Origin: Paenarthrobacter ureafaciens
GTDB lineage: Bacteria > Actinomycetota > Actinomycetes > Actinomycetales > Micrococcaceae
Direction: 5' to 3'
Length of the DNA stretch: 64,000 nucleotides
Assembly (NCBI RefSeq): GCF_004028095.1
Contig: NZ_SBHM01000007.1
Coordinates: 1,302,001 to 1,366,000, forward strand
Position 1 is the stretch's first letter. Each line of letters starts with the position of its first letter. A model generated the notes under the pieces. It had not been told where the DNA came from. It was given only the letters and a program-made list of their open reading frames with translations, and did not search any database. Below are positions 19,606 to 55,534 of the stretch, piece after piece. The position numbers and the translations under genes were made by a program.

Positions 19606-19767
19606 CTTTGAAATAAATTCACTTCGGTTTATTTTGCGTGCTCTATGCCGTGGACGAGCTTTCCCTGAGCGGTCTGGTGTTTGGATGGGTATGAGGTACC
19701 CGTATGGCGGTGAAACGCTTAGGGCGGAGCGCTTCTCAGCCACGGTGCTGCTGAATCGTGGTGGGTG

Positions 19768-19781
19768 GTTTCACGTGAAAC
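19768..19781. promoter_or_regulatory. parS site 1
   Basis: Perfect GTTTCACGTGAAAC, the ParB-binding palindrome. Leftmost site, 162 bases after the trxA terminator. Confidence 0.92.
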
Positions 19782-20344
19782 GGTCCCCGCGGACGTCGAG
19801 GGCTTCGCAGTCTTTCGCCGGCTCATGAGAGTAGCTTCGTTCAGAGTTCCTGGGTCAGCCGCTGGTTCGCAAAGGTAGACCGCAGAGGATAGTCAGGGAG
19901 TGGTGATTTTCCGGTGCGCTCCTGCGGGACATTTCGACGCCATTTAGCGCCTCCCGGGGTCCGAGAACGTTCTAGGGTGCTTCAATGCCAACCGCGCTTC
20001 AGGGCCCGCGGACAGTCATGACTCGTCGACTCTTCCGTCAAGACCGGCACCAACGCGTCCTCGTGGCTCAGCTCGCGCCATTCAAATCGCTCCGCGTGGC
20101 TCGTCTCATGGGAGATCTCCTGGCTGGATCGTGGGATGCGCGCTATGCGTCTGGGCTCTAACAGAGGTGCCCCGTGCTTAAATCTTCTATGTGATGCGTC
20201 TTCCCAAAAGCACTCCAGGAATTGCTACGGCATTCCTGCAATCACTTCACCCCTTCCTCGTGGACATCCCCGACCAACGAGAAGCGTGTTATCACGTTAG
20301 GAACTAGTCAGTCAGTACCAGCCAGCTATGTGCTGCGACATCCG

Positions 20345-20358
20345 GTTTCACGTGAAAC
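20345..20358. promoter_or_regulatory. parS site 2
   Basis: Perfect GTTTCACGTGAAAC followed by AT, as in most copies here. Confidence 0.92.
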
Positions 20359-20515
20359 ATACTTCTGTCTGCCGTCAGCATCGCTTCAGATCGCAGCAGA
20401 AAGAGCATCCCGCGCCGCACTCGAGCCCGAGTGACTGCTCTGGATTTCATCCCTGCCCCTAGAAATAGTCCCCAAAGGCTCTAAAACCGTCCAGAATGAT
20501 AGACGAGGGGGACTC

Positions 20516-20529
20516 GTTTCACGTGAAAC
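20516..20529. promoter_or_regulatory. parS site 3
   Basis: Perfect GTTTCACGTGAAAC, 171 bases from site 2. Confidence 0.92.
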
Positions 20530-21410
20530 ATTGCATCAACTATCCGTGTAAGCTTGAGCGCACGCTTCTAAACCGAGTAATTGGCGCTGACAACAGCGCG
20601 ATCTACCTCGATCTCAGGAGAGTCCCCTGAGTCACGCGCACCCCGTCTGAACGCGGGGAATTGACCTCCACGGGCAACCGATGACTCTAAACCGGTGCCG
20701 AACGTGAGACAAATCGGAACGCGCCTGACCAAGATGCACACCAGCGCACGCGTTGCCGCGGCCGCGCCCGCCATAGCCACGCCAAGAACTACTACGCATG
20801 GACAAGCTAAGCCTCCCTTCAGGTATTCCGCAGAACCTCTACTTGGCCGCACATCGGGCCCGGCCCGTACGGTGTCTTCTGCATCGAATGCCGTGCATAG
20901 AAAGGCGACCCTCCGTACACCGCCTCGATACGTGCGCAGCAGGCAACGTGAGAGAAGGTTGCTCTCGTCGTAGCGCTGCGTCAAACCCAGTTTCCGGGTC
21001 CGTTCAAGCGCCTAGAGAGTCGGTTCCTCCGGCAGGAGAGCATCAACTGCAGCGTTTCGTGTCGAGCTGAAACAGAATCTGCTTCGTGTCTGAGACTCAG
21101 CTAGCCATGCTGATGCCACTACGAAGAGTTTTCACCCGGCTCGAAGTGGATCACGACAGCTCTACTGAGCGGCTGGGATCAGATAAACGGAACTCGGCCA
21201 GCCCGATGGTCAACGGGCGCGCCAAATCGACCACTCCTTCCCGCACCCCGCCCTGAGGGGCACGCTAGCGGAACGAAGGGGCACATGTGATGTGACGATT
21301 CCACCCAGGTATTACCCAAGGTGGGTTCCCGAGTTCCAACCGGCCCTCTCACCACCAACGAACGAGCACGAAATACCGGCACTTCCTTGAACCACGCCAC
21401 CTCAATCCCT

Positions 21411-21424
21411 GTTTCACGTGAAAC
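21411..21424. promoter_or_regulatory. parS site 4
   Basis: Perfect 16-base TGTTTCACGTGAAACA palindrome including both flanking bases. Confidence 0.93.
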
Positions 21425-22052
21425 ATAAGTGGACCCAGTATGCAGACTGTCGAGAGTAAACTTGTTGCGCCGCTCGGTCCCCGGTGACCTTTTCCGGATC
21501 GAACCCTGAAGTGGGGGACACCGCGCTGCCCCGCTCCAGCTTGCTCGAGCCTAAAGTACACCGGCGTTTCGGCCTTCGTATTCTGGGGCTTTACAACGGA
21601 GATGGAGGATCCGTGCGGCTGCATTCCTACCGGCTGGGCAAGGGTGAGACAACCGCCAGCACTTACGAGGACGAATTGGACGCGAGTCCTTCATCAACAC
21701 CTATAGGCCGGCCCATCACGGAGCGGGCACATGTCAGAGGTGCCTTGGCCGAACTCAAGGTCAAAGAAACCGAAGGTCTCCACAGCCCTAACAGCGAACA
21801 ACTCGATAGCCTCGTTCGTCGCATTGGCGGTTGAATCCCTCTGTCTCCAGAGTCGCCCTAGGGCCGGGTGTGCCCGGTCCTGATGGTGGAATGTCGCCTG
21901 TGGCGTGGCATTTCATCCACGGCTACACATTACGTGGCATCACCCGGAGCCACGTGCCAGCGCGTTGAAGTCGCGTCGAGATGTGGGCTGGGATCCGCAG
22001 CCTGCTCAGCTAGGCACTTCAGATCCGAATCGTGTGACTGCCTGCCACCCTT

Positions 22053-22066
22053 GTTTCACGTGAAAC
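22053..22066. promoter_or_regulatory. parS site 5
   Basis: Perfect 16-base TGTTTCACGTGAAACA, about 450 bases left of the first DnaA-box triplet. Confidence 0.93.
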
Positions 22067-22493
22067 ATCGAGAATCCGCGGAGGGGGCCACCCCTAGGAG
22101 CGGACCGTACCTTCCTTGGAGTCCCAGTTCCGGTCTTGAAGAGGTCACACAACCGTTGGCTCGCCGAGACTGCCTCCTTCAGGTCGAGATCTGTTATGAA
22201 GTACGTGGATGAGCGCAGACGAGGCCGCGTATGAGACATCCGATGATTGTGATGCGGGACAACAACTATCCTGCTCATTCCTGGTACCGCGGGTTGGGGC
22301 CACCTAGGGTTGTCGTACCGTCGTGCATTCCGCCCCCGGTCCTGCTTCATCTCCATCCATTAGCCGGGGGAGTTTCCCGGCCCCGAGGGTGAGTTCCACT
22401 TGGCAGTGGTCGTCCCTGCAGTCATTCAAGTAGGCCGGATCGCTCCGAGCTCACCCGTCCCCTGAGGCCTAGGTGGCCGCAAACACCGTATGA

Positions 22494-22548
22494 GTATCCA
22501 CACATCGGACCCGAGTTATTCACAAGGTTATCCACAAGCTTATCCACG
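22494..22548 (+). promoter_or_regulatory. DnaA-box array A inside the centromere region
   Basis: TTATTCACA (22516-22524), TTATCCACA (22528-22536) and TTATCCACG (22540-22548) stand in tandem with 3-base spacers, a 12-base period. GTATCCACA (22494-22502) precedes them. One box is a perfect DnaA consensus and the others differ by one base. Nearly the same array recurs 322 bases to the right. Confidence 0.8.
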
Positions 22549-22837
22549 CGGTCTTGACGATCCGACAGATCCACCTGCCCACATGTCAGCACCGCCCTCG
22601 GTCCGCTGTATATCCGCATCGAGCTGGCCTCTGGCCCTCAGACGCGGCACTCGCCCTCAGGTGCCACAATTTTCTCAGAATACAGCTGATTTCGCCTTCA
22701 CAGACGACGCAGTGCGATGCGATCTAATCTCGCAGCCTTCGATAAACGTGGACATTGAACCACGGCTGTTCGTTGAGCCCTTCCCGTCATAGCACCCCGG
22801 TGAAGACGTGCCCGGTGAGCTCACATGGACTCATGTC

Positions 22838-22870
22838 TTATCCCCAAGGTTATCCACAGGCTTATCCACG
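22838..22870 (+). promoter_or_regulatory. DnaA-box array B inside the centromere region
   Basis: TTATCCCCA (22838-22846), TTATCCACA (22850-22858) and TTATCCACG (22862-22870) in the same order, orientation and 12-base period as array A, with the same AGG first spacer. Confidence 0.8.
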
Positions 22871-22958
22871 GCCGGACGGTATGAGCTGGCGCCATCCACA
22901 TGCAGTCCTGCCGGGCTCAATGATAAGAACGAGTCTCTACTCTTCTTCACCAGATGCT

Positions 22959-22972
22959 GTTTCACGTGAAAC
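22959..22972. promoter_or_regulatory. parS site 6
   Basis: Perfect 16-base TGTTTCACGTGAAACA, 88 bases right of DnaA-box array B. Confidence 0.93.
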
Positions 22973-24257
22973 ATCGGAAGCAGGGCCGCGGGCTGCGGTA
23001 CAGACGGCATGTACCGCCCAGTCCCGAACGCAAGCTAGTCCACGTCTACGGTCGTTAGTAGATACGCCAGGACGCTCGCATCATCTCTGCCTCATCACTG
23101 AGACCTACCTCACGACATCAGATCTTTCACGGACTCGCGTCACGCCGTCAGGCCCGCATCAAGCCGTCAGGATTGCGCCGTCGGCAAAGGAAGGTGGTAG
23201 GAGCTCTGGGACCAAGCCACAGAAGTGGGCACAATGCCGCAGCTCTCTTATGCGGAGGACGTCAGACGGGTGCGCAGGAGACACCGCCAAGCTCCAGCCC
23301 GCCCACCGCCATCGTCTGGGCACACGTAAGGCAACTAGACACATGTAGGGCATCCAGGCGGACGTCAAGCAGACGGGCAGTCGTCAAGCAGGCGGCTTTC
23401 CGCAACTCCCGGACATATCGTCTGGTCATCCGAGTACCTACGCAGCCATCCTCCGGGGGAGCGTCCACCCGAGGCTGGGCACGGTCAATGCAATATCGCA
23501 TCAGACGTAGAGTCTCCCAGTATCGCGCCGCGTACCATCACTGTTCCGCGCGTTGAGAGGCGTAAGAGCGTCCGACGATTCTGGGGTCGACTCACCAAAA
23601 CCCCATCATCTCTAGGCTCCAGAGAAACTCGAAGCTGCGGTTCCTCAAATAGCAATGACAGCTAATCGCTAGTAGCGCTGCTGAGGATGGTTCAGGCTAG
23701 GCGCTCTCTGGGTTGCGCCCAGCCAACTCAACGGGTCGTGCGTATCGCAGCAGCTAATCCTTAGGATTGCGCATCAGCCGCGGCCACGCCTAGGGGAGTC
23801 GCCTGCAGGGGCGCCCTAAGAAGAGACCAGTCACGCTCGGGGGAGCCGTGGCCTGTGACCAGGACCCAGCTACGCCCGGAGCCCTGCCTTGCGACTCTGA
23901 GCGGCCTTTGCACGGTCGGCTCGTACTGCACGGCCTTCTTCCGACCTCGTCGGCCCCATCCACAAAGGAGCACTCCTGCGTTCCAGGGCCTGAGGGCTGG
24001 CTCAGTCGGAGCATCGAGTCCAAAGGCTACAGCCCGAGGGATTCTCCAGCGAACTATGGTGCTTCTTACCGGCGAATCCCTGCCACGCCCAACGGCATCT
24101 CGTATCCTCACCCAGTCCTCCGCTGTCGTGGAACGGCTGGCCGCAGCCCCTCAGAGACGGTCCAACGCTCCTCTTCTAAAGAACAAATATCCCGCTACCT
24201 TCAAGCCCTTGATCGCGGATCTCAATCCCGAGCTCAAGAACCACTGTCTCCGGCTAC

Positions 24258-24271
24258 GTTTCACGTGAAAC
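24258..24271. promoter_or_regulatory. parS site 7
   Basis: Perfect GTTTCACGTGAAAC after a 1.3-kb gap without sites. Confidence 0.92.
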
Positions 24272-24397
24272 ATAGGCAGGGCTGCACTGATCGGACATTG
24301 CAGCGGACCATCAAGCAGGGGCTGCAGTACGTCGAAGGCAAGTTGCAGGCGTGGTCATACACTTCATCATCTAAGCTCTGGTAGTCCTCGGGCGAAG

Positions 24398-24411
24398 GTT
24401 TCACGTGAAAC
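24398..24411. promoter_or_regulatory. parS site 8
   Basis: Perfect GTTTCACGTGAAAC, 140 bases from site 7. Confidence 0.92.
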
Positions 24412-24728
24412 AGCGTCGAGGAACCCTGCTTGGTACGAGCATCCTGCACTGGCGCGTCCGGCCCCGGGATCAGCGTATGGAGTGGTTCTTCCTAGGGGCG
24501 CCTAAAAGGTGGGCGGCGTAGGTCGCCGTGAGGTTGGTCAGGAACGTCTATAGGCGTCTGGAGCACGCTTCGGGGAGACCCCAGCGATGGCTAGGGCGAC
24601 GTAACTTGCAAGCTTGCAGCGTGACGTATGCGGACTTCCGAGAAGCCCCGCTCCTGGCCCTACGGTGCACTTCTCTGAACTAGCCAGCCACCGACGTCGA
24701 TGTGAAGCATCCGGAGCAAATGATCCTT

Positions 24729-24742
24729 GCTTCACGTGAAAC
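24729..24742. promoter_or_regulatory. parS site 9 (one-base variant)
   Basis: GCTTCACGTGAAAC; only the second base departs from the palindrome. Probably still a ParB site of lower affinity (inference). Confidence 0.8.
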
Positions 24743-25120
24743 ATATATCTGCAGAGTAGTGGCAAAGGATAGTCAGTGCGCTCTCACAGCAGTTCGGCCT
24801 CACCTCGAACCGCCCGTGACAGTAAGGATGAGCAAAAACAGGGCGTACCAGATTACGCAAGGAATCGACACACGGCAGTAGGACATGCCTGGGCAGCATG
24901 TGGGCGGATAATTGCACCTCCAGGCGCATGCCAGTGACCTCATGTCACACGATGAACAACGTTCACGCACGACAGGCTGACCCAGACTGACACAAGGAGA
25001 GGACGGCCCTCACGACAGACCTACTCTGATCAGCGTTAACAACGCAAACGGGCCGGCATAAACAAGGGGACCACCCAGCCCAACCAAGACAGCCGTCCCA
25101 TCCAATAAGAAATCATCGTT

Positions 25121-25134
25121 GTTTCACGTGAAAC
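25121..25134. promoter_or_regulatory. parS site 10
   Basis: Perfect GTTTCACGTGAAAC; paired closely with site 11. Confidence 0.92.
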
Positions 25135-25154
25135 GAGCGCAAAAGGCGTCCTTG

Positions 25155-25168
25155 GTTTCACGTGAAAC
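25155..25168. promoter_or_regulatory. parS site 11
   Basis: Perfect GTTTCACGTGAAAC, 34 bases from site 10, the closest pair in the window. Confidence 0.92.
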
Positions 25169-25687
25169 GCTCATCCTCGGCGAGAGTAACTCCCGCGATG
25201 GGTGAATCAAAACTGCAGTAGCCGAGCGCAGTGTGCACTATCCGCGCCAATAGGGATCTCGAGCCCTCACGCTAGGGCACTCAGTCAGTGCATTCGCAGG
25301 AGTGAGGGCATCAACCACACTGAAGCTCGTGGAGCTAATACTTGGAACCGCCACAGGCGACCTGGATGGAGGCTCTAGGGTGGATGGACGCCTCACCCAC
25401 GCCTTAGAACGCGGTCCTGGCCGCCCACAGAGCGGCTTATGCGGATTCAGCGACGCTCCGACAGCCCGATGGACCCGAGGGGCGGTTTAGGGACCTCCAT
25501 GGACACACACAATCTGTCTCCTCGGAAGCTTCCGTGACGAGCGCCCAGATTGGCCCTGACGTCAAAAACCGACGGCACCTTGGATTCAACAAACGGCGTC
25601 CGCATATACCCGTTAATCCACATCACTCAAAAGCGACCCCCGGCCTGGACACACTAGGCCCCTCGTTCAGGGATGCTCGGAGACAGC

Positions 25688-25720
25688 AAAAGGGCCCACT
25701 CCAATGAAGTGAACCCTTTT
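25688..25720 (-). terminator. parB terminator
   Basis: Hairpin AAAAGGG..CACT / AGTG..CCCTTTT with a two-base internal loop, about 20 bases after the parB stop; on the minus strand the stem ends in CCCTTTT. Confidence 0.6.
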
Positions 25721-25738
25721 TCCGATGATAAGGAACTT

Positions 25739-26983
25739 CTAGCTTTCTGCCCCAGGACTCAACACATCCATGATCCGGTTGAGATCTTCCACGCTGGCGA
25801 ACTCAATGCTCACCCGTCCCTTACGGGCGCCAAGCGTGATCTTCACATTCGTATCCAGGCGATCAGACAAGGACGAGGCCAAGTAGTCCAACCGTTCGTG
25901 CCGTGCGTTGGGCTTGGGAATTGAATTCTTGGTGGGTGCGGCAGGCTCTTGGTAAAGCGCCACTGCTTCCTCTGTGGCCCTCACAGACATGCCCTCAGCC
26001 ACAATCTTCTGTGCGAGCCTTTCCATCGCGGCCGCGTCCGGCAGGGACAGCAATGCGCGCGCATGCCCTGCGGACAAAACGTTGGCGGCAACCCTGCGCT
26101 GCACCAGGGGTGGAAGCTTCAGCAAGCGAAGAGTATTGGAGACCTGCGGACGGGACCGGCCGATGCGGTCAGCCAATTGTTCGTGCGTCGTTCCAAAGTC
26201 CTCAAGGAGCTGCTGGTAAGCGGCGGCTTCTTCCAAAGGATTCAGCTGGCTCCGGTGGAGGTTCTCCAGAAGTGCGTCCCGGAGGAGGTCATCATCGGTG
26301 GTGTCACGGACGATCGCAGGGATGGTGTCCAGACCGGCGGCCTGCACAGCACGCCACCGACGCTCACCCATGACCAACTCATACGGTTCTCCACCCTTTT
26401 CGGTTGAAGTACGTACAACAATTGGCTGGAGGACACCGATTTCCTTGACCGAGTGCACAAGCTCTGCCATGTCGTCCTCATCGAAGACGGAACGGGGCTG
26501 CTTTCGGTTCGGGTGAATGTCCGTGACAGGGATTTCCGCGAAACGTGCTCCCGGAACCTCCACCAGGTCGGTCTGCGGTTCAGTGGATGCGGGTGAAGCG
26601 CTTGCTTCCGGCAGGGCGGTCGTCGGGCTTTCGTCTGAAGCTTCCGGAGCAGACACCGAAGCTGCCTGCTTGGAAGAGACCGTCGAAGACGATCCTGTCG
26701 CAGCAGCCGTCTTCTTGGTCGGAGCCTTGGCATCCGATTTGGCGCTCGACTTGGACGAGCCAGTCTTCGAAACTGCTGCTCGTGTGGCCGAACCCTCTGA
26801 AGCATCGTTGCCCGCTTCCGCCGGCGCGGAAACAGATTCCGGCTCCGGAGCTTTCCGGGCATCAGGGAAGAACAGATCCACAGGACGGGACGGCGAAGCG
26901 CCAGCTCCTTGGACGCCGGCGGAGGCCGAGCTGGGAATGAGAGCCCCAAGACCCCTGCCAAGGCCTCTTCGCTTTTCGCTCAT
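25739..26983 (-). CDS. parB: Chromosome partitioning protein ParB
   Basis: CTP-dependent DNA clamp that loads at parS and spreads to build the segregation complex. The 414-residue protein starts with the conserved [11 protein letters not shown], followed by a long Ala/Ser/Lys-rich linker (about 30-140). The ParB/Srx domain comes next (HPNRKQPR, then the CTP motif GERRWRA), then [14 protein letters not shown] and the helix-turn-helix around [16 protein letters not shown], and a C-terminal dimerisation domain. The linker is longer than in many ParB proteins. Its DNA sites fill the adjacent gene-free region and one lies inside parA. Confidence 0.97.
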
Positions 26984-27050
26984 TAGTTCTTCCCTCCGAT
27001 GGAATAGCCGAGCGTGGAGTAGCCCAGGCTCTTGCAGTGTTTCAAGAATT

Positions 27051-28103
27051 CTAGCGTTCTGCGATTTCAGCAGCGGCTTCCATGTAGGAGAGCGCGCCGC
27101 TGGACGAGGGATCGTATGTCATCACTGTTTGCTGGTAGCTCGGCGCTTCGGAGATACGCACAGACCGAGGAACTACCGCACTGAGAACCTGCTGAGGGAA
27201 GTGCTGGCGCACTTCGGAGGCGACCTGTGCCGCCAGGTTCGTCCGACCGTCATACATGGTCAGCAGGATGGTGGACACCACCAGATCAGCGTTGAGGTGC
27301 TTCTGAATCATTTCGATGTTCTTCAGCAGTTGACTCAGACCTTCCAGGGCGTAGTACTCACACTGGATGGGAATCAGTACTTCGCTGGCTGCACAGAATG
27401 CGTTCACTGTCAGCAGGCCCAGGCTGGGAGGGCAATCAATGAAGATGTAGTCGAGGCGGCCTTCGCCGTTCTTTTCGCGTTCTTTCGCGTAGACGTCGAT
27501 CGCGCGGCGCAGGCGCTGTTCGCGGGCCACCAGGGACACAAGCTCGATCTCCGCGCCGGCAAGGTGGATAGTGGCCGGGGCGCAGAACAGGTTGGGGATG
27601 TCCGGGCACGGTGCCACTACGTCCTTCAGGGGAAGGTCGTTGATGAGGACGTCATAAATGCTGTCTACATCAGCATGGTGCTCGATGCCGAGGGCGGTCG
27701 AGGCGTTGCCCTGGGGATCGATGTCGATGACCAGCACATTCAGGCCGGCAGACGCGAGGGCCGCAGCGATATTGACCGTGGTGGTGGTCTTGCCGACGCC
27801 ACCCTTTTGATTGGATACCGTGAAGATCCTGGTGCGCTCAGGTTTGGGCAACTGCCGTCCGATCAAACGTTCCCGCCGCCGGGTCTCGTTCGCCAACTGG
27901 CGTGCGATGGGGCTTGAATCGTCGATCGAGTCCATAACGTTGGGACCATCATCGGCCACAGTTTCACGTGAAACCGTCTTATCAACCGAATTCGTGCGAG
28001 CGGAAGCAGGCTGCAGCGTGCTCGGCGGTGTGGCAATAGACCGCGCGGACCCCAACGACATAAAAGGGGGGATCCGCTGCGTGGAGGTTTCGCTACTGCC
28101 CAC
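27051..28103 (-). CDS. parA: Chromosome partitioning ATPase ParA
   Basis: Deviant-Walker ATPase that moves ParB-parS complexes. The 350-residue protein starts at a GTG (28101-28103). Its ParA core shows KGGVGKTT (100-107), the conserved DIDPQGN (about 127-133) and the FIDCPPSLG strand (about 227-235). The first 90 residues are a variable, Ser/Thr-rich extension whose codons 44-48 (VSRET) coincide with a perfect parS site (27961-27974). The order rpmH-rnpA-yidD-yidC-jag-rsmG-parA-parB is the conserved actinobacterial origin-proximal block. Confidence 0.97.
27961..27974. promoter_or_regulatory. parS site 12, inside parA
   Basis: Perfect GTTTCACGTGAAAC embedded in the parA coding sequence (codons 44-48). 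Could let ParB bind over its own operon. Confidence 0.92.
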
Positions 28104-31379: not shown

Positions 31380-31844
31380 GTTAGTTACTCCAGTGGATCA
31401 AAGGTGCGCCCACCCGATCAAAAGGGGAAGAACTGGCCGACGCTAAGTTTTGTATGTGGCCGCCGCCGCTGCCTCTCGCACGGTAAACGTACGGAGATGC
31501 AACTGATCTCAAAAGCGGACACAAAGGACTTCACAACGTTAGGGCAAAAATAGACCCCCAGTCAAACCGGAGGGCCGCCCTGAAGCTGTCCACAACTGTG
31601 GCAAACGACTGGCATCAGCCTGTGGATGAACTGGCTCACAGCCACCGATCGGGAACAACAACGGTGTAATTATCCACAAGCAACTTCCCAGCTATCTTCT
31701 AGAGAAATCATCCCCTAGAGTGGCTCAGTAGCCCATTGTCCACCCGCTGTGCATAACTCTGTGGATTAATCCATGGAACACGTACCAGCCGGATGCCCTT
31801 CGGCTGCCAGCAACGCAGGCAAGCAAGTATTTAGGAACACATTG
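31380..31844. other. rpmH-dnaA spacer with DnaA boxes
   Basis: 465 bases without a gene. It holds the divergent promoters of rpmH and dnaA and several DnaA-box-like sites: CTGTCCACA (31586-31594), TGTGGATGA (31621-31629), perfect TTATCCACA (31670-31678), TTGTCCACC (31736-31744), TGTGCATAA (31748-31756) and TGTGGATTA (31760-31768). The cluster just before the dnaA start suggests autoregulation of dnaA and perhaps part of a bipartite origin. Confidence 0.7.
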
Positions 31845-33266: not shown

Positions 33267-33600
33267 ATCCACAGACGTTCCGCGCACTACATACCTTATT
33301 AACAGGCGCATGTGGATAACCCTGTGGATTGTTAAGGGGACAAGCGCGCTTAATGGGCTTAAAACCCTTAAGGCATCTGTGGATCGTTAAAAACGGGCTT
33401 CCGGGTTGTCCCCATCCACACCCTGTTTAAAACCCAGTTAACGCACAGTCCGTGAACAGGGCTTAACCGCGGAACCGCGCGGCGAAAGCCACTTATCCAC
33501 AGTTTCCACAGCAGTTATTAACACTACGAATCCCAAAAAATTGAAATCCCTCAAATAACAATCTCGTTCCTCCACGCCCCAAGGCACCACTGAGAGAGAA
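33267..33600. other. Chromosomal origin oriC (dnaA-dnaN spacer)
   Basis: Contains TGTGGATAA (33311-33319), TGTGGATTG (33323-33331), TGTGGATCG (33378-33386), CCATCCACA (33412-33420) and TTATCCACA (33493-33501). Repeated TTAA-containing stretches occur throughout. An AT-rich tract (33511-33565) is the best candidate unwinding element. Location between dnaA and dnaN is the standard place for actinobacterial oriC. The remaining 33601-33840 has a GC-rich GGCCGG repeat and no gene. Confidence 0.85.
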
Positions 33601-33840
33601 CTCCAACCGGCCACAGGCCGGCCGGGGACTGTCCACATAGCCGGGGTCCCGCCGGCCGGGGATGGGTTAATCCCCGATCTTGCGGCTAAGCTGTCACCAG
33701 CGCTCCCATCCCTGGGTTGGTTTTGTAGTCCGTTGTGTGCGGACCATGCACCTCGGGACCTTGGAACGCGGAATTTTGGCGGCTTCCATGGCTGGAATCC
33801 GCAGCTACTATTTGGCAGCAATGAAAGGCGGCACCCCTCC

Positions 33841-49853: not shown

Positions 49854-50708
49854 ATGAGCTACGGAATTCCGTCGGCCGAGCCGTCCGCTGACATCCCGGT
49901 GTGCCCCAGGCACCCGGACCGGCCTTCATACGTACGGTGCCAGCGTTGCGGGCGCCCTGCGTGTCCGGAGTGCCAGCGGGCGGCCGCCGTCGGGTTCCAA
50001 TGCGTTGACTGCGTCAACGAACAGAAGCGTACGACGCCGACCTACCGGGCCCCTTACGGCGGCGCGTTGGCCGTCGGCAAGCCCTTGGTGACGTACGCGA
50101 TCATCGCACTCTGCGTACTGGTTTACGTTCTGCAGTGGCTGCTGCCCGGCGAGGCTGTCTACCAGCAGTTCGCTTTTGCCAACGTTTTTGCAGACCGTGA
50201 GCCATGGAGGATGCTGACGGCGGCGTTCCTCCATTCCCAAAGTTTCCTTCTCCACATCGTGTTGAACATGTACACCTTGTGGATCTTCGGACAAGCCCTT
50301 GAGCCGTTGCTCGGGCGGGTCCGGTTCCTGGCCGTTTACTTGCTGTCCGCCGTGGGCGGTTCCATTGGATTCCTGCTCCTCACCCCGGACCGCCCCGTCA
50401 TAGGCGTGGTGGGTGCCTCGGGGGCGATCTTCGGTCTCTTCGGGGCAATGTTGGTGGTCCAAAGGCACCGCGGTGGGGAAACCCGCCAGCTGTGGGTCTT
50501 GATAGCCATCAATGGAGCAATCGGTTTCTTCGTCCAGGGCATTGCCTGGCAGGCGCACCTCGGCGGATTGATCACGGGCGGCCTTGCGGCCGCTGCCATC
50601 GCCTATGCCCCCCGCGGTAAGAACCAAGGGCTGCTCCAAGCGGGAGGCTTGGTCCTGGTGGGGGCGCTGCTGGCAATCGTCACCTGGTTCCGCGTTTCTT
50701 CAGGCTAG
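49854..50708 (+). CDS. Rhomboid family intramembrane serine protease with zinc-finger-like N-terminus
   Basis: A 284-residue rhomboid. Catalytic Ser189 lies in GASGAIFG and His235 in QAHLGGL; the HIVLNMYTLWIFG helix supplies the oxyanion Asn138. About six membrane helices span 77-280. The cytoplasmic N-terminus has a B-box-like cysteine cluster (Cys17, His20, Cys29, Cys32, Cys37, Cys40, Cys50, Cys53) that should bind zinc, a fusion found in many actinobacterial rhomboids. It starts six bases after ppiA and converges on the GyrI-like gene. Confidence 0.93.
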   Translation: MSYGIPSAEPSADIPVCPRHPDRPSYVRCQRCGRPACPECQRAAAVGFQCVDCVNEQKRTTPTYRAPYGGALAVGKPLVTYAIIALCVLVYVLQWLLPGEAVYQQFAFANVFADREPWRMLTAAFLHSQSFLLHIVLNMYTLWIFGQALEPLLGRVRFLAVYLLSAVGGSIGFLLLTPDRPVIGVVGASGAIFGLFGAMLVVQRHRGGETRQLWVLIAINGAIGFFVQGIAWQAHLGGLITGGLAAAAIAYAPRGKNQGLLQAGGLVLVGALLAIVTWFRVSSG

Positions 50709-50789: not shown

Positions 50790-51422
50790 TTAGTTCCGGG
50801 CTACGGGCTGCCGCAGGATTGTCTTGAGCTTCTCCGGAGCAGTCCGCCTCGCGTCGGACAGATAAATCTCGTGATGTTTCCCTGTGGGCCGAAGACGGTG
50901 CGAAGGGATGAAGTCCTTGTGCATCTCTTCCAGAACCGGGCCCTCTGCGTCGTACGGGCCTGTGTGCAGGGTCTGGACGCATAGTCCCTCATTCAACGAG
51001 GCCAGCCGCAGCGACTCCAATGCCGGCGCTCCACCCTTGCTCCGTACGGCCTCCACTACAGCGTCTACGTGCCCCGGGGTGATCCAGTCAGGCGTCATGA
51101 TCATCATGGTCCAGTCCCAACGGGACTTATCCCGTTCCGTGGTGAAGCTGGCCATGTCCTCAGACCACCACAGACCTTCCAGCGGCATCACGCCGTAGTC
51201 CCGGCCGAGTTCCTGCTTGCTGAAGAACTTCAGCTTGTACGCGACCGGATACAGCGTTTCCAAGGCATCCCTGTAAGCCTGGGCGGTGTTGGGATCGCCG
51301 TGGCCGTCGATCATGAGGAATTGCAGCTCCGGTACCTTGACCAATGCGAACGTTCCTGCCGTGGCCTTGTAGCTTGTGATCTCCTTCTTGAAGTCGACCT
51401 TGGTCTTGGACTGTGTGCCCAC
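50790..51422 (-). CDS. GyrI-like small-molecule-binding domain protein
   Basis: A 210-residue cytoplasmic protein of the GyrI-like/effector-binding family. It opens with VDFKKE and the VKVPELQFLMIDGHGDP strand, then the YGVMPLEGLWW segment and late VQTLHTGPYDAEGPVLEEMHKDF, all of which resemble the family's ligand-binding fold. There is no DNA-binding domain. Members bind or degrade hydrophobic cations; the ligand here is unknown. Its start at 51422 opens onto the DnaA-box-rich gene-free segment. Confidence 0.85.
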   Translation of the reverse strand: MGTQSKTKVDFKKEITSYKATAGTFALVKVPELQFLMIDGHGDPNTAQAYRDALETLYPVAYKLKFFSKQELGRDYGVMPLEGLWWSEDMASFTTERDKSRWDWTMMIMTPDWITPGHVDAVVEAVRSKGGAPALESLRLASLNEGLCVQTLHTGPYDAEGPVLEEMHKDFIPSHRLRPTGKHHEIYLSDARRTAPEKLKTILRQPVARN

Positions 51423-52165
51423 CGCTCCTCCTCGATGCAGGTCATCCCCGCTCCGGCGTTATCCACAGATGTTATCCACACTGTGAGTAACTTACATACG
51501 TGTAGTTAGGACGCTAAAGGCCAGCCGGCACGTGAAATGGGGCAGATATCCCCCGTTTGGCATGTGTTGATCCACATCTGTGGATAACTTTGTCCCCTGC
51601 AGGAGGCTGTTTGTGGACAAGAGAAGCCCTGAGGGCAGGGGTGTGGAAAAAGCTGTTAATCCGCCTGTTAATAAGCGCCTATCAACAGAGTTATCAACAC
51701 TGTTAATAACTTACAGTCGTGTAGTTTCGGAGCTCCTGCGGGCGCTGAAGCCTGCCATGACAAGGGTTTCCGCCGCTATACCCACAACTTTTCCCCATCT
51801 GTGGATAACTTGTGAGCGGCTCGTTGTTGTTAAGTGGGTAACTCTGTGAGGACGTCTTCCAGGTGCTTGTTCGAACGTCGGCGAACAAGCACAAGCTCGG
51901 GTGGATGAACTTTGACCGAATGAACCTGCAATATCCACAGCCTCGTACACAGTGGGTAAAACCCGGTTGCTACTGCCGGGTAGCCCGGAGAACGCACCAG
52001 TCCGGGGCTTTTGGCGCCAGTTCCGTGGATGTCCACAGAAGTTATCCACGGCTGTGGATAAAGTTACGCACTTTCTGTGGAAGGCAAGCACGCCGTCAGG
52101 CACTGCGGTGGGCCTTGGCGGAGTTCTCCAAAGCCCGCGGAGCTAGTTCGAAGCCTGAGGAGCGC
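51423..52165. other. Gene-free segment rich in DnaA boxes, internally duplicated
   Basis: 743 bases without a credible gene. Perfect DnaA boxes (TTATCCACA on either strand) lie at 51459-51467, 51472-51480, 51579-51587, 51800-51808 and 52053-52061. One-mismatch boxes lie at 51568-51576, 51612-51620, 51691-51699, 51931-51939 and 52042-52050. Two related blocks about 220 bases apart (51472-51507 and 51691-51726, roughly 85% alike) extend to the ATCTGTGGATAACTT boxes. It is about 18 kb from oriC. Confidence 0.8.
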
Positions 52166-52768
52166 TCAGTTCCAGACGCCCGAGGAGCCGCGTCGATGGC
52201 TGTCCACCAAGTGGGTGTCGATGATTCCCACAGCTTCCATGAGGGCGTACATGGTGGTGGGGCCAACGAAAGCGAAGCCCTTCTTCCGGAGCGCTTTGGA
52301 CAGCGCTATGGACTCGGGCGACGTCGTGGGAATGTCCGCGAGGGTTTTGGGAGCGGGCGTCTTGTCGGGCTTAAATGACCAGACAAAGTCAACCAGCCCA
52401 CCTTCCTCACGGAGGGCAATGGTGGCTTTGGCGTTGGTGATCGTTGCACGTATCTTGAGGCGGTTCCGTACGATGTCCGCATCCAGCATCAACCGCTCCA
52501 CATCAGCCTCGGTAAAGGTGGCCACGCTCTCCGGATGGAAATCAAGGAAGGCTTCCCTGAACGCTTCCCTCTTTCGGAGGATGGTGGCCCAGGACAGCCC
52601 GGCTTGGAAGCCTTCCAGGCTGATGCGTTCATATAGCCCCTGCTCGTCCCGGACAGGCATTCCCCATTCATGGTCGTAGTAAGCCTGCATCAAGGGATCC
52701 GAAGCTGCCCACGCAGGCCGTGCCAGGCCGTCCCCGCCAATGACCGTGCCGTTCTCCGCGGGATTCAT
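52166..52768 (-). CDS. tag: DNA-3-methyladenine glycosylase I (Tag), cysteine-free
   Basis: Base-excision enzyme that removes 3-methyladenine. The 200-residue protein follows the Tag fold: YYDHEWGMPV, GFQAGLSWATILRKREAF, IVRNRLKI and KKGFAFVGPTTMYALMEA, with an HTLVDSHR-like end. Escherichia coli Tag binds zinc through two Cys and two His near its termini; this protein has no Cys at all (RPAWAASD replaces the usual Cys-containing start). It lies 72 bases after alkB and is probably the last gene of the alkylation-repair operon. Confidence 0.93.
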   Translation of the reverse strand: MNPAENGTVIGGDGLARPAWAASDPLMQAYYDHEWGMPVRDEQGLYERISLEGFQAGLSWATILRKREAFREAFLDFHPESVATFTEADVERLMLDADIVRNRLKIRATITNAKATIALREEGGLVDFVWSFKPDKTPAPKTLADIPTTSPESIALSKALRKKGFAFVGPTTMYALMEAVGIIDTHLVDSHRRGSSGVWN

Positions 52769-52840
52769 TCGTAGCTCCTTTTGGCTAAGTGTGGAAAACC
52801 CTGCATTGGATTTCCCCGTTGGGGATATTGTGCCCGCGGG

Positions 52841-53557
52841 CTACGACATCCCGGTGACGCGCATGGTGATGTTGATGCGGCCGTGGGAAAGACCGCAATC
52901 CGAGGGTGCCGTGCCGGGGTGGACCTTGGGGATGCCGTGGTAGGCAAACCGCGATGGCCCGCCGAACACAAACAGGTCGCCCGACCGCAACTGCACGTCC
53001 TCGTAGGGTTTGGTACGGGTCCGGGTGTTTCCGAACCGAAATACGCAGGAGTCGCCAATGCTGATGGACACCACAGGCGCACTGGACCGTTCGTCCTTGT
53101 CCTGATGCATCCCCATGGCCGCGCCATCGCCGTAGAAGTTCACCAGTGCAGCGTCCGGTGCGTAGCCGTCGGCCAGGCCGCTCAGGGAGGCGTCCTGGAC
53201 CAACTCCGGTGCATATGCCTCTGAGACTGCCTTCTTGCCCAACCGAACCATCCAGTCGGGGAAATCGAGGACAGGGCGGCCATTGACGTCTGTTGCTTCC
53301 CGCGTGTACTTGTACGGCTGCCAGTGCCAGCCCAGGCATACGGTCTTGACGGACATCTGCTGGCCGCCCGGCAACGTGGCCGCACGCAGCGGCACCGGAC
53401 CCTGTGTCCACTCCCCAAACCGGGCCACGATCCAGCGCTGTTGCTCATCGGTGAGCCAACCGGGAACGTGCACTGCGCCGGGTGCGACCAGACGCGGGCC
53501 GGAGTGGCTCCCCTGCGGTTGGCCGAGCTCGACCGGGAACAGGGCGTCCTCGGTCAT
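52841..53557 (-). CDS. alkB: Alpha-ketoglutarate-dependent DNA dioxygenase AlkB
   Basis: Fe(II)/2-oxoglutarate dioxygenase that reverses N1-methyladenine and N3-methylcytosine damage. From the ATG at 53557 it has 238 residues. The iron triad is His151, Asp153 (GMHQDKDE) and His207; 2-oxoglutarate-binding Arg227 and Arg233 lie in RINITMR. The nucleotide-recognition segment around GWHWQPYKYT is present. Its ATG overlaps the stop of the upstream methyltransferase by three bases, so translation is coupled. The longer frame to 53650 lies inside that gene and is rejected. Confidence 0.95.
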   Translation of the reverse strand: MTEDALFPVELGQPQGSHSGPRLVAPGAVHVPGWLTDEQQRWIVARFGEWTQGPVPLRAATLPGGQQMSVKTVCLGWHWQPYKYTREATDVNGRPVLDFPDWMVRLGKKAVSEAYAPELVQDASLSGLADGYAPDAALVNFYGDGAAMGMHQDKDERSSAPVVSISIGDSCVFRFGNTRTRTKPYEDVQLRSGDLFVFGGPSRFAYHGIPKVHPGTAPSDCGLSHGRINITMRVTGMS

Positions 53558-54180
53558 GCCGCGGCCTCCAAGGTCAGGAGAGTTCGTTTCGCTTCCGTGC
53601 CGCCGAGATACCCTCCGTAGGTTCCATCGGTCCGGACCACCCGGTGACATGGCACGATGACCGGCAGAGGGTTGGTGGCGCAGGCTGTGCCCACCGCCCG
53701 GACTGCGTTGGGGCTGCCCGCTGCCCTGGCCACCTGCGAGTAGCTCTCCGTGGTTCCATAGGCAATGTGCGGCAGATGATGGAGGACGTCCAGGCGGAAG
53801 CCGCGCGAGAGGCTGAAATCCAAGGGGAGGTTGAACGTCCGGCGCTGGCCGCTGAAGTATTCATCGAGTTGGCGGGCGGCTTCGTCCAGCAGCCCGGGGG
53901 CCTCAAGGATTCGTGGGCTGACGGTGTTGGAAAGCTGTTGAAGTACTGACGCGTGGTCTTCGAGTTGGAAAGCTACCCGGAGCATGCCCCGTGCAGTAGC
54001 GGCCAAGAGGAGCCTTCCGACCGGTGACTCCACCACCCGGTAGGCGATATCCAGGGAGTGGTCTTCCCACGCCGCACGGGCCAAGCGGGCACGAAGGGCT
54101 ACCAGTGAAGCTTCCAGCCCGGAGTCCAAGGACTTCAACATGGTGCCCACATCGCCGGGTTCCTGTTCCACGGAGGTCAT
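53554..54180 (-). CDS. Methylated-DNA-protein-cysteine methyltransferase, second copy
   Basis: Suicide repair protein that removes O6-alkylguanine adducts. The 208-residue protein has the catalytic PCHRVVR with Cys178, and SPVGRLLLAAT, FRLDVL and YGTTESYSQVA in order. It is longer at the N-terminus than the other copy (about 35 extra residues with coil-like Ala/Leu/Arg) and resembles the Ada C-terminal half more than Ogt. It overlaps the sigma factor gene by four bases (ATGA) and the alkB start by three. Confidence 0.92.
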   Translation of the reverse strand: MTSVEQEPGDVGTMLKSLDSGLEASLVALRARLARAAWEDHSLDIAYRVVESPVGRLLLAATARGMLRVAFQLEDHASVLQQLSNTVSPRILEAPGLLDEAARQLDEYFSGQRRTFNLPLDFSLSRGFRLDVLHHLPHIAYGTTESYSQVARAAGSPNAVRAVGTACATNPLPVIVPCHRVVRTDGTYGGYLGGTEAKRTLLTLEAAA

Positions 54181-54716
54181 CCGGGTACTCCTCTCAAAGC
54201 AGTCGGCAATAGAACGGTGGGTGAAGGCCGGCCGAGCGCAGCCCGGAGAGCTTTGACGCCGTCCGCTGCTGCCCGGCGGGCAGCGTCCGGAGTTACGCCC
54301 ACAAGGGCCGCAACATCCTTGTAAGGAAGCCCGACAAGATAGTGGTAGGCGATCGCCTGACGTTGCTTCGGCGGCAGCTGACCGACGGCGTCGAGTAGTT
54401 CCACCTGCCCCTCATCCGGCACACCCAGGCTCGAGGGCACATCGGGCGTTTGCTGTACCGGCACCGGCCTCCGAACCGACGCGCGCAGGATGTCGATGCA
54501 TTTCCGATGGGCAATGGTCACAAGCCATGCCTCCGTATTGGCATCTGCCGGAAGGTCTCCATAGGCCTTCAGTGCTGACAGGAAAGTCTCGGACCAAGCA
54601 TCCTCGCCGTCGTGAATGCCAACAATGGCCCGGCACACGCGCAGGACCGTGGCGCCGTGTTCCTGCACCACGGTTTCGAACGGTCTCTTTGGGGGTGCCG
54701 GGGGAATTGGCCCCAT
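54177..54716 (-). CDS. ECF-like RNA polymerase sigma factor inside the alkylation-repair operon
   Basis: A 179-residue sigma-70 family member. Region 2 (about 10-85) includes VCRAIVGIHDGEDAWSETFL and WLVTIAHRKCIDIL, region 4 (about 110-165) includes LPPKQRQAIAYHYL and a helix-turn-helix PYKDVAALVGVTPDAARR. No anti-sigma factor gene is next to it. It is sandwiched between two methyltransferase genes with one-base (TGATG) and four-base (ATGA) overlaps, which implies co-expression with alkylation repair. It may drive this operon or a wider damage response; both are inferences. Confidence 0.9.
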   Translation of the reverse strand: MGPIPPAPPKRPFETVVQEHGATVLRVCRAIVGIHDGEDAWSETFLSALKAYGDLPADANTEAWLVTIAHRKCIDILRASVRRPVPVQQTPDVPSSLGVPDEGQVELLDAVGQLPPKQRQAIAYHYLVGLPYKDVAALVGVTPDAARRAAADGVKALRAALGRPSPTVLLPTALRGVPG

Positions 54717-55225
54717 CAGAAGAGCTTGCTCTCTTTGACAGCCGCAGGCTCCTCCAATTCCAAAAGGAATCTCTTATTGTCCAAGCCGCCCGCGTAACCA
54801 GTGAGGCGGCCCGTGCTTCCCACCACGCGGTGGCACGGAACAATGATGCTGAGCGGATTGCGTCCCACTGCGGAGCCCACCGCCTGGGCAAGGTGGGGAT
54901 CGCCGAGTTCGGTTGCCAGTTGCCCGTAGGTGACCGTTTCCCCGTAGGGGATCAACTGCAGGCGATGCCAGACTTTTTCCTGGAGCTGGTTTCCCCGCAC
55001 TTTGAAGGGCACCTCGAAGTGTGTTCGGTTCCCGCCCAAGTACTCGGCCAATTCGGCTTCCGCCCGTGAGAAAACGGGATCCCCGCCAGCGGCCAATGAG
55101 CCGAAGTAATCCGCAGGCGGCAGGTGCCAATGGCCCTCGTAGAAAATGCCCGTGAGGAACTGCCCGCTGGCAGTCAGCGTCAACTGCCCCAGCGGGGAAT
55201 CCATGGTGGTGTGCCTGGTGCTCAT
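54716..55225 (-). CDS. ogt: Methylated-DNA-protein-cysteine methyltransferase, Ogt type
   Basis: Suicide O6-alkylguanine repair protein of 169 residues. The active-site Cys131 lies in PCHRVVG; the DNA-binding helix GNQLQEKVWHRLQLIPYGETVTYGQLA and the asparagine hinge GRNPLSIIVP are complete. The N-terminal beta domain begins MDSPLGQLTLTAS. It is the first gene of the operon ogt, sigma, MGMT, alkB, then tag, and its stop shares one base with the sigma start. No obvious SD is seen before its ATG, only CAGGGT. Confidence 0.93.
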   Translation of the reverse strand: MSTRHTTMDSPLGQLTLTASGQFLTGIFYEGHWHLPPADYFGSLAAGGDPVFSRAEAELAEYLGGNRTHFEVPFKVRGNQLQEKVWHRLQLIPYGETVTYGQLATELGDPHLAQAVGSAVGRNPLSIIVPCHRVVGSTGRLTGYAGGLDNKRFLLELEEPAAVKESKLF

Positions 55226-55279: not shown

Positions 55280-55534
55280 TCAGGACCGCCAGCGAGTGGT
55301 CATCAGAAAGCCCACGATTGCGATGCCGAAGCCGGCCACGATGTTCCACGAAGCCCAGTCCCGTACCGGGAACTGACCTTCGGTGATGTAGAACGTGATG
55401 ATCCACAGCAGGCCGAGGATCATCAGGCCGAACATCACCGGCTTGAACCACACGGGGTTCGGCTTGTACTGCTGCGCTGCGGAAGTCTGCTGCTCCTGAC
55501 GGGCAGGCCGCTTGCGGGGCTTGGACTCGGGCAC
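55280..55534 (-). CDS. crgA: Cell division protein CrgA
   Basis: Small actinobacterial septum protein of 84 residues that recruits peptidoglycan synthases to the division site (known family role). A basic N-terminus (KPRKRPARQEQQ) precedes two membrane helices (about 31-51 and 60-79) joined by TEGQFPVRDWASWN, a signature of the family. Start is GTG 55534 with AAGGAGGATCC. As in mycobacteria it lies close to the sortase, pabA and pknB genes. Confidence 0.96.
   Translation of the reverse strand: MPESKPRKRPARQEQQTSAAQQYKPNPVWFKPVMFGLMILGLLWIITFYITEGQFPVRDWASWNIVAGFGIAIVGFLMTTRWRS

Follow-up and report, generated by a model that had tools for sequence, protein, structure and literature searches.

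A conserved DnaA-box element with a spaced palindrome near oriC of Paenarthrobacter ureafaciens, a probable brake on replication initiation in Actinomycetes

How initiation of chromosome replication is held to once per cycle in Actinomycetes is, to our knowledge, poorly understood. Clusters of DnaA boxes that restrain initiation are already a known kind of site: according to the accessible portions of the reports, clusters of this type in Streptomyces coelicolor and Bacillus subtilis repress untimely initiation (PMC4585315, PMC10950094, PMC5742627). In Escherichia coli, as far as the available accounts go, datA limits active DnaA, whereas DARS1 and DARS2, non-coding clusters of DnaA boxes that also act on DnaA, work in the opposite direction to a limitation of the datA type. 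Here we describe a non-coding cluster that resembles these systems. It lies in a 64,000-nucleotide stretch of the Paenarthrobacter ureafaciens genome (contig NZ_SBHM01000007.1, positions 1,302,001 to 1,366,000), called the window throughout, to which all coordinates refer unless a contig or locus is named (Table 1).

The segment is situated 17.7 kb from oriC and contains five perfect TTATCCACA boxes and six boxes with one mismatch (at 51568, 51612, 51642, 51691, 51931 and 52042), giving 11 DnaA boxes at no more than one mismatch, in agreement with the first-pass annotation of this DNA, which had listed five perfect boxes on both strands and at least five imperfect ones. The whole genome (4.40 Mb) has 37 perfect boxes, five of them in this segment, and 407 with at most one mismatch; from these densities 0.006 perfect and 0.07 ≤1-mismatch boxes would be expected per 743 bp, and in 500 dinucleotide-preserving shufflings of its sequence no more than one perfect or two ≤1-mismatch boxes ever arose. 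Comparable density was not seen in ordinary spacers, and only one other place in the genome has three perfect sites inside 1 kb (C7:1276239-1276677). That place (L032:6240-6678), about 57 kb left of dnaA, is directly upstream of a dnaB-like gene, whose identity was read from the translation.

The description of the segment as gene-free also held. Rfam and tRNA searches gave no match inside 51423-52165, and a coding gene was rejected for the two wholly internal ORFs (51580-51849 on the plus strand and 51711-52103 on the minus strand), each of which carries stops in 9 of 9 relatives, with frames anchored on the palindromes described below and small indels left as they stand; two further ORFs, 51069-51509 and 51863-52378, enter the segment from outside. 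A known structured RNA was ruled out as the identity of the segment by the lack of an Rfam match there. Phage origin was likewise discarded, as 51430-51850 found no match in 50,697 phage records and the viral contigs had no exact composite. One plasmid record, from Arthrobacter, matched the element. The 1.0-Mb record titled "plasmid StoSoilB13-2" (L031, NZ_AP024649.1) carries the element, and the record may therefore be chromosomal; a record titled Vibrio cholerae 35D (L144) has an Arthrobacter-type composite, and its title is probably wrong. None of the 12 parS-like TGTTTCACGTGAAACA matches (≤2 mismatches) in the 64-kb window falls in the segment. Twelve parS-like sites at this threshold lie left of oriC, at 19767-27960, and DnaA boxes at 22494-22548 and 22838-22870 are found among them.

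Table 1 Features of the element and its surroundings in the window.
Feature	Position	Strand	Remark
rhomboid-family gene, left landmark	49854..50708	+	
GyrI-like gene	50790..51422	-	beside the element in 3/16 same-genus loci examined
non-coding DnaA-box element (whole)	51423..52165	.	predicted boxes, shuffles, relatives' alignment
unit 1 box R1, perfect	51459..51467	+	30 bp before palindrome
unit 1 box R2, perfect	51472..51480	+	17 bp before palindrome
unit 1 palindrome AACTTACA-N4-TGTAGTT	51489..51507	+	exact copy
unit 1 inverted box, perfect	51579..51587	-	+90 from palindrome
unit 2 box R2, TTATCAACA	51691..51699	+	one-mismatch box
unit 2 palindrome AACTTACA-N4-TGTAGTT	51708..51726	+	exact copy, 219 bp from first
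unit 2 inverted box, perfect	51800..51808	-	box scan
module B, conserved block holding boxes 52042+ (one mismatch) and 52053- (perfect)	52022..52081	.	
tag (3-methyladenine glycosylase), right neighbour	52166..52768	-	
crgA, next to the box cluster on its right in most of the other families examined	55280..55534	-	
composite ACA-N4-TGTAATTATCCACA, dnaA promoter	31658..31678	+	95-115 bp before dnaA
dnaA	31773..33266	+	
oriC, dnaA-dnaN spacer	33267..33732	.	

The segment contains two similar units. In its general form the unit reads box, 13 bp, box, 17 bp, AACTTACA-N4-TGTARTT, about 90 bp and an inverted box; the 19-bp palindrome AACTTACA-N4-TGTAGTT is not a DnaA box, and its only exact copies in the genome are the two in the segment. 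The duplicated 36-base blocks, reported earlier as about 85% alike, were confirmed, with 31 of 36 bases identical between 51472-51507 and 51691-51726, 219 bp apart. The recurrence of ATCTGTGGATAACTT stood as well, although its copies start one base earlier than had been given, at 51576 and 51797, and are 221 bp apart instead of the 219 bp that separate the blocks. Three features had escaped the first-pass annotation: the palindrome at fixed spacing, the wide conservation of position and a composite in the promoter of dnaA.

The spacing was counted over 90 instances of the palindrome at 53 loci of the same genus: a box with at most one mismatch stands at -17 in 80 and at -30 in 52 of them, and an inverted box follows downstream in 88, in 82 at +90 to +94. 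Other genera (20 loci, part of them without synteny) have the -17 box in 21/30 instances, the -30 box in 18/30 and the inverted box in 24/30. The distance of 219 bp between the two units is shared by the window's genome and all nine of the close relatives compared, and is about 240-275 bp in some other congeners. In an alignment of ten relatives, in which the window's own row covers the second half of the segment and not the first, near-identical short blocks, among them the DnaA boxes and the 19-bp motif, stand amid freely varying sequence. Module B has 82-95% identity in short matching stretches of relatives, and in five genomes (G012, G043, G045, G051 and G054) modules A and B are both kept, 3-12 kb apart. 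The palindrome would most simply mark the site of a second protein, the alternative being that it reflects an arrangement of DnaA's own.

By DNA similarity the element is present in 56 of the 60 other genomes of the genus. The composite pattern is found in 59 of these 60, the exception being G016, and its reversed control in none, so the segment is indeed kept in close relatives. At up to two mismatches 33 congeners have two matches, 26 have one and one has none; in G021 and G027 the second match is not near the first. Across the family, 144 of 295 genomes, from 21 of 32 genera, have the 19-bp motif with no more than one mismatch, against 15/295 for the reversed control, and a longer pattern occurs in 72 of 396 genomes of the order (control, 1/396), distributed as 31 in the own family, 19 in f6, 16 in f19, two each in f3 and f4, and one each in f13 and f17. 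Most of the f19 matches belong to a different element and, like the f17 match, are far from dnaA. Arthrobacter, Pseudarthrobacter, Paenarthrobacter, Sinomonas, Glutamicibacter and Psychromicrobium are the named genera among the best 80 of at least 118 matches. A specific, conserved element of predicted DnaA boxes is therefore strongly supported at the level of sequence.

The position of the element relative to dnaA was measured in 53 genomes (42 + 11) that have the motif and dnaA on one contig, taking the match near dnaA where there were several, as in G688, G696, G528 and G123, which have a second match elsewhere. In 53 of 53 it is found downstream of dnaA, with the same orientation as that gene. 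The distance is 16.8-18.1 kb in 11 congeners; in 21 other genomes of the family it is 14.2-26.3 kb in 20 and 63.9 kb in one, so that side and orientation are the same in 32/32 and the distance is 14-26 kb in 31. For the 14 genomes of f6 the range is 29-60 kb, and for the five of f19/g21 and f3 together it is 11-22 kb; the f4 and f13 matches are 56 kb and 108 kb away. These distances leave out genomes in which separate contigs carry the motif and dnaA (G599, G608, G658, G100, G156, G198, G695 and G138), those in which the two come close only on the assumption of a circular contig (G144, G215 and G319), G369 (motif in oriC), G108 (about 507 kb away), and G449, G624 and the f19/g28 matches (far away or on other contigs), as well as G541 and G681 of f6 and many motif matches of the family. 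One g41 genome (L084:2008) has the palindrome, with one mismatch, inside oriC, between dnaA and dnaN.

Outside the family we took up to 40 kb downstream of dnaA from 50 genomes and used 48. Since the rhomboid landmark was found in 26 of these and not in the other 22, our claims from this set are limited to the 26. With the dnaA-dnaN part (oriC) excluded from the ranking, the kilobase after the rhomboid gene holds the best DnaA-box cluster in 22 of the 26, where about 0.7 would be expected; it ties in one and ranks lower in three, the best cluster lying elsewhere in f5_G064, f6_G065 and f8_G085. When the window's genome is added, the rhomboid gene and crgA are convergent in 26/27, at least one box (≤1 mismatch) lies between them in 26/27 and the gap is below 1.5 kb in 25/27; because the flanking genes converge, the cluster is not a shared promoter. 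In the other families this spacer has 0-6 boxes and measures 94-1580 bp. In a review, crgA is given as SCO3854 (PMC4255298). The gap in the window also contains the GyrI-like, tag, alkB-like, two ogt-like and sigma-factor genes. Between the element and crgA, at 52166-55225, the DNA-alkylation repair genes (tag, alkB-like and the two ogt-like genes) form a run together with the sigma factor, and in 25/27 genomes a run of this kind would not fit between the rhomboid gene and crgA.

The palindrome was defined in the own family first and then tested in the other families, where its core, TACA-N4-TGTA, occurs 12 times in the 23.3 kb after the rhomboid gene versus twice in 1,017 kb elsewhere, an enrichment of about 260-fold. 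An exact core after the rhomboid gene is present in 10 of the 26 genomes and often adjoins a box, as in ACACCGGTGTAGTTCTCCACA. In seven genomes of this set, both from f37 included, there is no core at that place even at one mismatch, so the palindrome is not universal; the two f37 genomes, which we take as Streptomyces-like, do have a strong box cluster in the rhomboid-crgA spacer.

A matching composite, of the pattern ACA-N4-TGTARTT-N-TCCACA, precedes dnaA itself. It is also found before dnaA in G023, G040 and G002, exactly in one of 20 further dnaA upstream regions (G634, f6) and with at most two mismatches in one more (G233); it was not seen in the 167 bp upstream of dnaA examined in G055. 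Across the class the composite occurs in 66 of 384 genomes, most of these sites being counted without placement relative to dnaA, and the reversed pattern in none; several f45 genomes have two or three copies. Within the window's genome, AACTTACA-N4-TGTAGTT at up to two mismatches has a single site outside the segment, which rules out a general transcription-factor site. The symmetric form AACTACA-N4-TGTAGTT has seven places at this threshold, two in the segment and one in the dnaA promoter. Two more of the seven are found upstream of an fpg-like gene and of a LuxR-type regulator, one at each (L320:2659-2676 and L340:3308-3325; names read from translations), the latter copy with a ATATCCACA box close by. 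The palindrome factor may, judging by these sites, have a small regulon. In f19/g28 a conserved CCACAAGGGGTAGTAGTTACATCCGTGTAGTT of the same palindrome type lies away from dnaA (for example G096:C1:2283248 and G504:C1:2308040) and is possibly another target of that putative factor. We also considered MtrA as the palindrome factor, which in the accessible parts of the reports binds dnaA and oriC (PMC5487470) and has the motif GTCACAGCG (PMC4285127); this motif is unlike the palindrome, and MtrA was set aside.

Many likely DnaA sites, the same place in many families and a second, palindromic motif together indicate that the segment is probably a replication brake, that is, the Arthrobacter version of an oriC-proximal, predicted DnaA-binding element that is conserved in Actinomycetes and would restrain initiation together with a putative second factor. 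The nearness of oriC, the converging genes on either side, the rigid spacing of the boxes and the dnaA-promoter composite point to control of DnaA. From the sites, their geometry, conservation and position and the matching promoter composite, all observed directly, we infer binding by DnaA and by a second protein. That the effect would be a brake and not a stimulus we infer by analogy with clusters described elsewhere.

In such a brake, DnaA would bind cooperatively to boxes at fixed distances around the palindrome, and the palindrome would be recognised by a putative second DNA-binding protein or by an unusual arrangement of DnaA. In the accessible part of one report the DnaA domain I dimer is conserved across Actinomycetes, and its self-contacts are proposed to join DnaA on distant boxes (PMC13270200), which would fit cooperative binding across spaced boxes. 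Being near oriC, the locus would be copied soon after each initiation, and because of this early replication its two copies would draw DnaA into complexes, lower free or active DnaA and delay re-initiation, whether by titration or by stimulated hydrolysis as in datA. More tentatively, the element could belong to a two-protein control system for DnaA in Actinomycetes, in which a conserved putative protein on TTACA-N4-TGTAR joins DnaA at composite sites, at the rhomboid-crgA locus and, for some lineages, also in the promoter of dnaA, as a datA counterpart with a partner other than IHF. If this were true, the palindrome would be a bait for a DnaA partner acting across much of the class; and a small cis element whose position is conserved in many families lends itself to deletion or relocation with a direct read-out of the effect.

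A DARS-like stimulator, at which DnaA would be reactivated or collected and then passed to oriC, would be served by clustered boxes with a partner-protein site, and boxes of opposite orientation do flank the palindrome. We nevertheless regard it as unlikely: E. coli DARS sites lie further from oriC, and, in the accounts accessible to us, those clusters close to the origin for which a role is reported act to restrain initiation. It also seems doubtful that DnaA and a palindrome protein fold or anchor the origin region here with little effect on initiation. Such an architecture or segregation site would suit the fixed side and orientation relative to oriC, the parS-like sites clustered across oriC on the opposite side and the usual neighbour crgA, a cell-division gene; but the segment itself is without a parS-like site, and the dnaA-promoter composite points to DnaA control.

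Control of adjacent genes by DnaA, a known transcription factor, together with another factor would be in keeping with the GyrI-like gene that starts at 51422 and adjoins the element, but this gene has that place in few of the same-genus loci and the rhomboid gene and crgA converge across the cluster in nearly all genomes, which makes a transcriptional region quite improbable. Hardly more can be said for the palindrome as a bidirectional terminator, with the boxes alone binding protein: it does have converging genes on its two sides in most of the families examined, and a short stem is possible, but the folds are weak (-3.4 and -2.5 kcal/mol, with z of -0.36 and -0.70), there is no T tract, the spacing to the DnaA boxes is fixed and the promoter of dnaA has a similar composite. 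An auxiliary origin of replication, the other role first suggested for this segment, or the remnant of an oriC duplication is very improbable, because although the lowest-GC 40-mer approaches that of oriC (32.5% vs 30%) and a GTTATTAACA-type sequence is common to both, the palindrome is absent from the window's oriC at up to three mismatches, no replication gene directly adjoins the segment and the few boxes at this place in other families weaken the proposal.

The DnaA-limiting role, which had also been proposed at first, is the best-supported analogy, and it is on this reading that the element can be set beside known systems. Like E. coli datA, as described in the available accounts, it would combine DnaA boxes with a site for a second protein. 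The limiting role may carry over, the datA label less surely: datA has an IHF site between its DnaA boxes, and the window has no exact match to one IHF consensus (WATCARNNNNTTR), with 0.86 expected by chance, so that this is a weak test; a degenerate site or a different partner may be present instead. The B. subtilis clusters (Okumura et al. 2012) are similar, by description only and as far as the accessible text goes, in being oriC-proximal and reported regulators of initiation. In the matches listed from the literature searched, which included few subscription papers and was available in part, the conserved synteny, the palindrome composite and the dnaA-promoter composite were not described, and the palindrome sequence in several spellings had no match. 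Unlike our element, the clusters of the Streptomyces-like f37 genomes occupy the rhomboid-crgA spacer without a palindrome core. The S. coelicolor cluster H69 is, we assume, near crgA. The closest likeness in description is to the S. coelicolor clusters (Smulczyk-Krawczyszyn et al. 2006), an actinomycete DnaA-box cluster near oriC that represses initiation according to citing papers; a palindrome and wide synteny do not appear in the available descriptions of those clusters, and the S. coelicolor cluster may be the same locus as the element described here.
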